64,000 nt of DNA from Halobacillus mangrovi. Its GTDB lineage: Bacteria > Bacillota > Bacilli > Bacillales > Halobacillaceae. A model generated the notes under the pieces. It did no database searches. It saw nothing but the letters and a program-made list of their open reading frames with translations, and was not told the origin of the DNA. Numbering within the stretch: position 1 is the first letter of the stretch; each line of letters opens with the position of its first letter. The stretch covers positions 3,698,501-3,762,500 of the forward strand of contig NZ_CP020772.1 in NCBI RefSeq assembly GCF_002097535.1. Direction: 5' to 3'. The position numbers and the translations under genes are program-made. Positions 50,830-55,788 of this stretch are shown piece by piece.

Positions 50830-52449
50830 CTAGCTTAAGAATCGCTTTAATTTTGTCATTGTCTGTTCAGGTTCTGAAGACATGGCATGAAAGGCTACGT
50901 GACCATCAGGACGAATGAGGAGAGTACTCCCTTTTTCCATGCCCAGCTTCTTCTCCAGATGTCTGTGCACATCGTAAATAATTGGAAGTTCTTTTCCTTT
51001 GGTCAGAACCGTCCCTCCTTTTGCGACAAGGAAGATCTTCAGAAGATCAGGGTAGTTCTCCCGGGCCATTCTTGAAAAAGTATAGGCATGATTAATAAGA
51101 GCATCGTCCTGGGCATCGATATAGATAAAGCAAATGTACCCATGCCTGCGAATCAATGGATACACACTTTTGTCGTTGGTTCCATCAAAGAATAAGAGAT
51201 GGTCAGGGACACGCTTTCCTGATTGAATTGCTTCTTTCGATAGAGAAGAATCTAGTAACTCCTTATTACGGGACGTATCTTCATATTCGTTATAAATATG
51301 AGATAGGTGGTGAGCAATCTTTTTTTGAACCCAATCTTGGGTTAACGCCGCCTTCCCTGTCCAGTTCCGTACTTTCCCTTGTGCGCCTTGTAAATCAATG
51401 ATCTTAAGCATCCGGGCGGTTTCTTTGAGTACATCCATTCCGATTGGAGATCGCTCAAAATGATAACTGTCCAAAAAGGAGTCATTCGCATGACCCTTAA
51501 GCACCGCATCCAGCTTCCATCCAAGGTTTGCCGCATCCTCGAGTCCAAGGTTCATCCCCTGTCCACCAATAGGATTGTGGATGTGAGCTGCATCCCCAAT
51601 GAAAAACACGCGGCCTTTTCGGTAATTGGGCACCTGTCTATGAGCTGTGCCAAAGTACGAAAGCCATTTAGGGTTTTTAACTTGATAAGGTTCGGACAAA
51701 ATCGTGTTCAGACTTTCTTGTAATTCATCAAGAGTCAGTTCATCTTTGTGAGGGAGGCCCTGTTTGGCACGATCCAGCCCCACGACACGGTAACTGCCGT
51801 CTTTGTATGGGAAAAAGGCAACGGCCCCCCGATCGTTCAGATGCATGTTAATATAAATCTCGTTTAATGATGGAACGTCGACATCTCCTAAGAAAAATGT
51901 ATACCCTTCATCCTCTCCTTCAAAGGTAACGTCCAAATCCTGGCGAACCTTACTATGTGCCCCATCGCACGCTAACAAGTACTTGGCAAAATACTTCTTA
52001 AGCTCCCCGTCATGCATAGCATTGACATACACACCTCTGTCCGCTTCTATCACTTCCACAACTTCATGCTTCCGGCTGACCTCTCCCCCTAAAGCAGATA
52101 AATGCTCCTCTAATATCTTCTCCGTTTCACTTTGAGGAATGATGAGGAGATATGGATATCTGCTTTCAATATGATACAGCTCTACCAAAGATGGATTTTC
52201 TCCACCTAAATGCAGTTTGGAACCGGGACCCGGATAGCCTCGTCTCAAAAACGATTGATGAACACCTAAGAGTTCAAACATTTCAAGTGTTCTTGCCTGG
52301 ATTCCAAGTGCTTTCGAAAGCTCAGAAGGTCCCGTTCTTTTCTCTAAACAGAGATAATCCACGTCTCTTTTCTGTAACTCATTGGCTGCCATAAGCCCTG
52401 CTGGTCCTGCTCCAATGATCAGTACATCGGTTTCAATTACGGAAGTCAA
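50830..52449 (-). CDS. FAD-dependent aromatic monooxygenase (PheA/TfdB-like)
   Basis: 539 residues. The FAD fingerprint LIIGAGPAGLMAANELQ starts the protein, the GD motif is FIGDAAHIHNPIGGQGMNLG, and residues after about 400 resemble the thioredoxin-like C-terminal domain of phenol-hydroxylase-type enzymes. Substrate unknown; no ring-cleavage genes are near. TTG at 52449 is the start, with AAAGGGG 9 bases upstream. Confidence 0.87.
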   Translation of the reverse strand: MTSVIETDVLIIGAGPAGLMAANELQKRDVDYLCLEKRTGPSELSKALGIQARTLEMFELLGVHQSFLRRGYPGPGSKLHLGGENPSLVELYHIESRYPYLLIIPQSETEKILEEHLSALGGEVSRKHEVVEVIEADRGVYVNAMHDGELKKYFAKYLLACDGAHSKVRQDLDVTFEGEDEGYTFFLGDVDVPSLNEIYINMHLNDRGAVAFFPYKDGSYRVVGLDRAKQGLPHKDELTLDELQESLNTILSEPYQVKNPKWLSYFGTAHRQVPNYRKGRVFFIGDAAHIHNPIGGQGMNLGLEDAANLGWKLDAVLKGHANDSFLDSYHFERSPIGMDVLKETARMLKIIDLQGAQGKVRNWTGKAALTQDWVQKKIAHHLSHIYNEYEDTSRNKELLDSSLSKEAIQSGKRVPDHLLFFDGTNDKSVYPLIRRHGYICFIYIDAQDDALINHAYTFSRMARENYPDLLKIFLVAKGGTVLTKGKELPIIYDVHRHLEKKLGMEKGSTLLIRPDGHVAFHAMSSEPEQTMTKLKRFLS

Positions 52450-54547: not shown

Positions 54548-54598
54548 GGAAAGGGGTTGGAGCTATATTTTTTCATTTAGCTCCAACCCCTTTTAAAA
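54548..54598. terminator. Terminator between amidase and phosphofructokinase-like genes
   Basis: AAAGGGGTTGGAGCT with AGCTCCAACCCCTTT, 14-base loop, flanked by A- and T-rich tracts on both sides. Confidence 0.9.
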
Positions 54599-54631: not shown

Positions 54632-55594
54632 TTATGATGACAATCTTCCGGACAAATAATACATTCTTTCATCGATCCGAGGCTCTTGCGAGAAGATCTC
54701 ATCGAAGTCAAAGTTCACAGGCTGATTATTTTTAATCCCTACTAATTTTCCTGTTTCATTATTCATCAGTAAGTCTATCGCATACGCCCCTAATCGACTA
54801 GCTAAAACTCGATCCCTTGCTGTAGGCGCTCCCCCTCGCTGCGTATGCCCTAGCACAGTCACTCGTGATTCGATTCCTGCCTCTTCTTTCAATTTGGCGT
54901 TGAGATCGATTCCAGACACACTTCCTTCTGCTACGACAATAATGCTGTATCTATTTCCGCTCCCCCTTTTTATCTGTTCAACAATACTCTCTACATCCTC
55001 TTTCTTTTCAGGAATGACTATACTTTCAGCCCCACCAGCTAGTCCAGAGTATAGAGCTAAATTCCCTGTATCCTTCCCAGCAACTTCAACGATCGATGTT
55101 TTTTCATGCGATGAAGCTGTATCACGAATGCGATCAATGTAATCAATGACCGTGTTTAAAGCTGTGTCAAAACCTATTGTTTCCTCTATACCTGGGATAT
55201 CATTGTCAATCGTGGCAGGAATGCCGATACACGGAAAGCCTCTACTGGCTAAAGATTGGGTTACATGTAACGCATCTCTTCCCCCAATGACAATAAGAGC
55301 GTCTATTTTTAACTTTTTCAGGTTTTCAATGGCTTTTTTTTGGCCTGCCTCTTTAGAGATTTCTTCAGTTATGTAAGATTGCAGTACGGTCCCTCCTCGC
55401 TGCAGGATAGAACCTACAGACGCCGCATCCAACTTCTCAGCAGATTCGTTTAACAATCCCTGGAATCCATATTTAACCCCAACCATCTCTATATCATGAT
55501 ATAAGCCTGATCTTACAACAGCACGTATAGCTGCATTCATTCCTGGAGCGTCTTCTCCGCTTGTTAAGACACCAATTCTATTCATTGCATTCAC
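54632..55594 (-). CDS. 6-phosphofructokinase paralogue with altered ATP site
   Basis: 320-residue protein of the PfkA fold, but not the canonical enzyme. Residues given with the Bacillus numbering (subtract 3 from this protein): Gly11 is Glu14, Arg72 is Ile75, Cys73 is Thr76, and the GGDGS loop with Asp103 is GGRDA (Arg106). MGR is AGK. Retained are the TIDNDIPG catalytic Asp127, Glu222, Arg243, His249 and Arg252 of the sugar-phosphate site. The start is GTG at 55594 (AAGGA 6 bases upstream) or ATG at 55585. It stands alone, away from accDA and pyk. Probably a non-catalytic or differently reacting paralogue. Confidence 0.85.
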   Translation of the reverse strand: MNAMNRIGVLTSGEDAPGMNAAIRAVVRSGLYHDIEMVGVKYGFQGLLNESAEKLDAASVGSILQRGGTVLQSYITEEISKEAGQKKAIENLKKLKIDALIVIGGRDALHVTQSLASRGFPCIGIPATIDNDIPGIEETIGFDTALNTVIDYIDRIRDTASSHEKTSIVEVAGKDTGNLALYSGLAGGAESIVIPEKKEDVESIVEQIKRGSGNRYSIIVVAEGSVSGIDLNAKLKEEAGIESRVTVLGHTQRGGAPTARDRVLASRLGAYAIDLLMNNETGKLVGIKNNQPVNFDFDEIFSQEPRIDERMYYLSGRLSS

Positions 55595-55762
55595 TCTCTT
55601 TCCTTTACCACATCGTTGATAGCTATTCTATACTTTATTCGCTCCTCCAACAAGAGTAGCCCTGATAGAAAAAGGGCTAATTAACCTCTCCCGTTAGTGA
55701 AGTCGAAAGAAAAAAATCCATGACCATATTCTACTAATCAGATGAAGAACAACTTAAAAGAC

Positions 55763-55788
55763 TACCTCCTTACTAGTAGGAAGTAGGA
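55763..55788. repeat. Imperfect palindrome in the pfk-nfo gap
   Basis: CTAC-C-TCCTTACTAGTAGGA-A-GTAG, one mismatch. The 290-base gap (55595-55884) has no gene or other signal that I can see. Confidence 0.45.

Follow-up and report, generated by a model that had tools for sequence, protein, structure and literature searches.

Bacterial phosphofructokinase (PFK) of the PfkA type is a textbook allosteric homotetramer. In the C-terminal half of animal PFK the ATP pocket has been lost and the pocket for fructose 6-phosphate (F6P) has become a sugar-bisphosphate effector site, as described in the part of PMC12203962 available to us. The available part of PMC3653104 describes the alpha subunit (PFP-alpha) of the plant pyrophosphate (PPi)-dependent PFK as a regulatory subunit that stands beside a catalytic beta subunit in a heterotetramer, while the inactive paralog GlgD modulates the active GlgC in a mixed tetramer in Firmicutes including G. 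stearothermophilus (PMC9093745, accessible text). We describe here a PfkA-like gene at 54632..55594 on the minus strand of a 64,000-nucleotide stretch of Halobacillus mangrovi DNA (contig NZ_CP020772.1, positions 3,698,501 to 3,762,500), referred to as the window. A preliminary description had proposed that its product, the window protein, lost the ATP site of PfkA and serves as a regulatory pseudoenzyme, a sugar-phosphate sensor or a kinase with another phosphate donor. From comparative sequence analysis we put at about one in two the probability that the gene is a duplicated pfkA whose ATP and magnesium (Mg) site was lost and which was kept as a pseudoenzyme regulator. In the open-licence PubMed Central literature, as far as its text was available, neither this Halobacillus gene nor any PFK pseudoenzyme from bacteria was found to be described.

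The window protein matched the PFK domain PF00365 with 338.3 bits, in keeping with PFK homology and fold, and was 54 to 56% identical over its whole length to the canonical PfkA enzymes from G. stearothermophilus and B. subtilis, with the same predicted fold. Residues are numbered as in G. stearothermophilus PFK. The lists of ATP, F6P and effector positions follow in part what we take to be established in the PFK structural literature, with G11 and R72 presumed to be donor-site residues of ATP-dependent PfkA, D103 presumed to be a Mg ligand and R243 assumed to reach the F6P site of the neighbouring subunit. The positions D127 and E161/R162, the GGDG, GGDD and PKTIDXD motifs and the adenine-site glycine were taken from the available part of PMC12203962, in which D127 is the general base, Arg162 is the R/T switch arginine reaching the F6P site of the neighbouring subunit and GGDG is the donor motif of ATP-dependent PFKs; the adenine-site glycine was equated by the present analysis with position 108.

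The window protein carried E11, I72, T73, I76, S77, R103, D104, A105 and V108 in place of G, R, C, F, K, D, G, S and G of the G. stearothermophilus enzyme, respectively. From the sequence and its alignment, the codons concerned include those for residue 11 (55553..55555), residue 72 (55370..55372) and residues 101-105 (55271..55285), where the former nucleotide and Mg motif GGDGS has become GGRDA, all on the minus strand. The replacement of ATP and Mg residues that was first reported therefore stands, although position 73 is C or S among normal PfkAs and is no strict marker. The alignment to the G. stearothermophilus chain was full length with its first gap after residue 209, so that the altered residues are not alignment errors, a concern attached to the first observation. 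T125, I126, D127, N128, D129, E222, R243, H249 and R252 were unchanged, and the window protein has kept its general base and, as initially noted, the whole catalytic loop TIDND (residues 125-129, 55199..55213, minus strand). The sugar-phosphate residues had been described as largely kept, which was borne out for E222, R243, H249 and R252 but not for R162K (the R/T switch arginine, codon 55100..55102, minus strand), M169A and R171K. Within the effector loop two residues were deleted at 211-212 and K213N had occurred.

A normal ATP-dependent PFK that tolerates odd residues would agree with the names given in the sources for the relatives, namely 6-phosphofructokinase and often ATP-dependent 6-phosphofructokinase, and the window protein did pass the cut-off of PRK03202 (388 versus 253). 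However, the donor-site positions were changed together, with GGRD, E11 and I72 standing where an ATP-dependent PfkA has GGDG, G11 and R72, and the score against the NCBIfam PFKA_ATP equivalog (TIGR02482 / NF002872) was 364.1, below the cut-off of 371.35, while the pfkA product of the same genome scored 460.5. This explanation is regarded as extremely unlikely, and judged by its residues the window protein is very probably dead as an ATP-PFK. The other pfkA, the only further PfkA-type gene on the 4.14 Mb contig (G000:C1), is located at C1:1690476-1691429 and has fully canonical residues, which answers the early question of whether a second copy exists.

The altered gene was found well beyond the window. 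A whole-genome search located the paralog in 21 of the 22 genus members sampled, G006 alone lacking it, and in 3 of 22 genomes from elsewhere in the family; all 24 paralog-carrying genomes also encoded a PfkA with canonical donor residues. Phylogenetic comparison with canonical PfkA, which the preliminary description had suggested, placed all 27 paralogs on one side of a branch with a support of 100/100 in a tree of 72 rows; these comprised the copies of the 24 genomes and three further sequences (P0033, P0013 and P0003) that were not in the 24-genome codon sets. P0033 branched outside the other 26 and had lost D103 while retaining R162, an example of a natural intermediate. A total of 8000 homologs were scored, and among the best 120 of these D103 was missing in 39 and present in 81. 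All 81 also had G104, G108, D127 and R162, and hence no gradient was seen among the best 120, for which the label (ATP-dependent) 6-phosphofructokinase is probably wrong in the 39 cases without D103. The closest named homologs among the matches listed from these 120 were from Halobacillus, including one of H. mangrovi at 87% identity. No match above 60% identity was found outside the family among 397 genomes of the order (E up to 1e-112), and the 33 plasmid records with a match were every one below 60%, with identity and not residues being compared in both searches.

Changes at the donor site extended throughout this clade. Position 103 was R in 13, K in 11, I in two and L in one of the 27 tree members and D in none, while position 104 was E in 20 and D in seven; among the 39 homologs lacking D103 it was D or E in 38 and K in one. 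Position 108 was occupied by V, T, I, A or M in all 27, and such a residue, bulkier than glycine, should crowd the adenine. R72 was gone in 26 and G11 in 23 of the tree members, and position 105 was A in 16 of 23 genomes, a set that here and in the site counts below leaves out the very divergent G012. Outside the donor site, position 162 was K in 26/27 with R only in P0033. The catalytic base D127 was missing in 8/27, which needs at least four changes, and D129 was missing in 5/27. Retention was complete for E222, R243, R21 and E187 and nearly so for R25 (26/27), R154 and R252 (25/27 each) and H249 (23/27).

For a background rate, 167 sites invariant across 32 canonical rows were used, of which 138 remained once ATP, F6P and effector positions were set apart. 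Across the 23 genomes the ATP-site positions were kept in 11% of paralog cells compared with 74% at the 138 other sites (p=4e-5), whereas retention at F6P and catalytic positions (76%) and at effector positions (67%) did not differ from the background. Among PfkA-invariant sites the ATP site has therefore been specifically dismantled, and its positions also showed high entropy within the clade, above 0.9985 of random draws from all sites. To call the F6P site specially protected would be too strong. Mildly low entropy at the F6P (0.055) and effector (0.12) positions relative to random draws was considered as a signal and rejected, as it vanished with the invariant-site control.

Such changes could also belong to an active kinase or phosphotransferase that uses another donor (PPi, polyphosphate or acetyl phosphate) or another substrate. 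The PPi-dependent PFKs carry GGDD and PKTIDXD, the second Asp of the former sitting where the ATP alpha-phosphate would, and a bigger residue replaces their adenine-site glycine, according to the available part of PMC12203962. The D or E at position 104 and the larger residue at 108 in all 27 paralogs are like those enzymes, and the window protein has its TIDND loop. Position 103, however, was R, K, I or L and never D in the 27 members, so that GGDD does not occur, and the lysine of PKTIDXD (position 124) was replaced by A in 21 and by S in two of 23 genomes. The repeated loss of D127 likewise speaks against catalysis of this kind, and the window protein scored 85.9 on the PPi-PFK model TIGR02477 against a cut-off of 587.95. 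Use of PPi is unlikely because D103 and the PKTIDXD lysine are missing, and a kinase with another donor, one of the roles initially suggested, is improbable. The window protein, which scored below the ATP-PfkA equivalog cut-off and lacks both PPi-PFK motifs, looks by its sequence like a PFK regulatory pseudoenzyme, and the regulatory pseudoenzyme and sugar-phosphate sensor readings of the gene both survive.

Selection on the gene, which had been surmised from its intact appearance, was evident from the codon model. Omega was 0.108 for the 24 paralogs compared with 0.020 for the pfkA genes of those 24 genomes. Of the 276 pairs, 21 had a dS <1.5 for paralog and pfkA alike, and in these the median pairwise values were 0.081 and 0.014, respectively. 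The paralog is maintained by purifying selection, less tightly than pfkA. A relaxed or decaying duplicate without function could be argued from an omega about five times that of pfkA, from the fast evolution of G012 and of the G001/G010/G019 branch and from the lack of the gene in G006. Against decay, none of the 24 genes had an internal stop, omega was low across the clade and in pairwise comparison, the gene was present in all but one of the 22 genomes of the genus, and position 162 was K in 26/27 and not drifting, which together make this a very unlikely explanation. The observation made on one gene is confirmed, and it now covers a clade under selection that is represented in almost every genome sampled from the genus.

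A course of events that would fit these results begins with a duplication of pfkA and loss of the ATP and Mg site in the ancestor of Halobacillus, after which the duplicate would have been retained as a pseudoenzyme and the catalytic base lost repeatedly. The intact gene beside a normal pfkA in the genome, the clade-wide change of the donor site, the D127 losses, the purifying selection and the predicted PFK fold, in which most F6P-site and many effector-site residues remain, all point in this direction. The paralog may still bind a sugar phosphate, either F6P or fructose 1,6-bisphosphate, and perhaps an ADP or phosphoenolpyruvate effector too, and it would switch between R- and T-like states and serve as a regulatory protein; that it is a sugar-phosphate-binding regulator is judged fairly probable. 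That it acts through PfkA is a tentative proposal. Mixed tetramers with PfkA would be the most likely form of such action, in which R243 and K162 of the paralog could complete the F6P site of the neighbour and tune its cooperativity, and this is proposed by likeness to the dead C-terminal half of animal and fungal PFK.

Several results weigh against a regulator that binds sugar phosphates and works on PfkA. Once the average of other genes was taken into account, the branch lengths of the paralog and of PfkA showed no specific covariation (partial rank r 0.17, p 0.31; 40 branches, 23 genomes), while the FadR-like neighbour of pfkA gave 0.32 with the paralog (p 0.04). The controls were five neighbours of pfkA, a malic enzyme, a FadR-like regulator, accD, accA and pyk, and G021 was excluded as pyk was not found there; these names were assigned by eye and are our assumption, as is the placing of accD, accA and pyk beside the canonical pfkA at C1:1690476-1691429. 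No conserved operon partner was found, the widest neighbour cluster apart from the paralog itself covering 12 of 24 genomes. No catabolite-responsive element (cre) of CcpA with fewer than two mismatches occurred in the 300 bases upstream of the gene in the relatives; one cre-like site with two mismatches was common to six close relatives. At the putative effector site D59 was lost in all 27 tree members, G212 was kept in a fraction of 0.04 and H215 in none of the 23 genomes, to which the effector-loop deletion of the window protein is added. The sugar-phosphate site was itself altered in some members (R171 and H249 in the G001/G010/G019 branch, H249 and R252 in G012, and R252 in G021), its retention overall was that of the background, and the lack of the gene in G006 indicates that it is not needed by every member of the genus.

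The paralog might instead form homotetramers of its own, bind sugar phosphates and control a target other than PfkA, such as a transcription factor, kinase or transporter; in these homotetramers K162 and R243 would hold the paralog's own ligand. The missing PfkA-specific covariation and shared operon partner would be expected of such a protein, and the copies of G031 and G034, which group on the paralog tree with other Halobacillus copies than expected from the control-gene tree, suggest that lineages whose PfkAs differ may exchange the gene. The discordance may reflect a transfer from one genus to another, and a portable and independent function would be easier to reconcile with this. On the other hand, the most PfkA-like stretches of the paralog include 241-250 (identity 0.88) and 151-160 (0.80), which we take to be subunit-contact stretches, so that the paralog could hardly be expected to stay apart from PfkA. 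An independent homotetramer is considered less likely than the reading we prefer, though a serious rival to it. In the sister genus to which G031 and G034 belong the paralog was present in two of 11 genomes (L041 and L042).

The coding sequence was confirmed as intact, being a single reading frame of 320 aa from a GTG start and open throughout, and an internal ATG at 55585 on the minus strand gives 317 aa. The GTG is preceded by a ribosome-binding-site-like AAAGGAAAG at 55598..55606 (minus strand), identified from the sequence and from the upstream regions of relatives, in which an in-frame start codon lay 9 bases upstream of the ATG in 17/24 cases and was usually preceded by a GAAAG-type motif; the ribosome-binding site first reported is accordingly plausible. 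The gene is flanked on one side by an amidase gene, which is convergent with it, and on the other by a gene for deoxyribonuclease IV. Between the amidase and PFK-like genes a hairpin at 54550..54593 (strand not assigned) was recognized by its folding energy of -32.2 kcal/mol (z -5.85) and is possibly a terminator shared by the two. The terminator of the preliminary description is upheld as a strong hairpin, but the U-run was short on the PFK strand and the hairpin was absent from the results of the terminator scan. A terminator-like hairpin at 55762-55786 (minus strand) was located 5' of the PFK-like gene and 3' of the deoxyribonuclease IV gene, where one was found against 0.9 expected by chance. 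Also on the minus strand of the window, 50830-52449 encodes a protein of the FAD-binding monooxygenase type, which was above the cut-off for Pfam FAD_binding_3 and below it for all 25 NCBIfam models shown.

Additional PFK copies outside the clade were of several kinds. The second copy of G048 (L067), from another family of the same order, had GGEG (E103) and K162 with the TIDND loop intact and possibly represents an independent donor-site change, while the second copies of G045, G051 and G060 had a normal donor site. A third, distant PFK of G009 (L063), 31% identical to the G. stearothermophilus enzyme, contained GGDG and PMTIDND, and an Actinomycetota metagenome-assembled genome (L008, JAQVHC010000008.1) had N at position 103 (GGNG) with G11, R72, G104 and TIDND present.

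If a regulatory role is correct, glycolytic control across the genus may involve a second gene, and if the paralog also assembles with PfkA, a bacterial PFK would be regulated by a separate dead subunit. Compared with the canonical enzymes of G. stearothermophilus and B. subtilis, the paralog shares the fold and most F6P-site residues but differs in having no ATP and Mg site, in R162K and in falling below the equivalog cut-off. GlgD is similar as an inactive paralog that co-occurs with an active one, as was the case in 24/24 paralog genomes here, and differs in belonging to an unrelated enzyme family, ADP-glucose pyrophosphorylase, in which the mixed tetramer is established, whereas for the PFK paralog it is a proposal. 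PFP-alpha is likewise a PFK-family member beside a catalytic one, but it is of the PPi type, eukaryotic and described in a heterotetramer, whereas the paralog is known here from genes. The best parallel appears to be the animal PFK C-terminal half, in which the mammalian muscle and platelet chains of the Protein Data Bank have GGFEA and PATVSNN where the clade has GG[RK][DE]A and PATI[DEYN], and the changes of the clade, including the later loss of D127 and D129, resemble those of that half. The window protein, with GGRDA, shares with the eukaryotic PFK-1 regulatory half a GGxEA-like donor motif and a lost ATP pocket. The eukaryotic dead half, however, is fused behind an active half and is found in animals and fungi, whereas here there is no tandem fusion but a free-standing bacterial gene seen in Halobacillus-like genomes only, and sugar (bis)phosphate binding, a property of the eukaryotic half, is putative in the paralog, in which E222, R243, R252 and H249 are kept in most or all members. 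We know of no bacterial source of fructose 2,6-bisphosphate, the eukaryotic ligand. By this analogy, and more tentatively still than its action through PfkA, the paralog could be a bacterial pseudo-subunit that has independently entered the path of the eukaryotic regulatory half, with a dismantled ATP site, a sugar-phosphate effector site and mixed PfkA tetramers, and it would then be a bacterial replay of the step that yielded the regulatory PFK half of animals and fungi.
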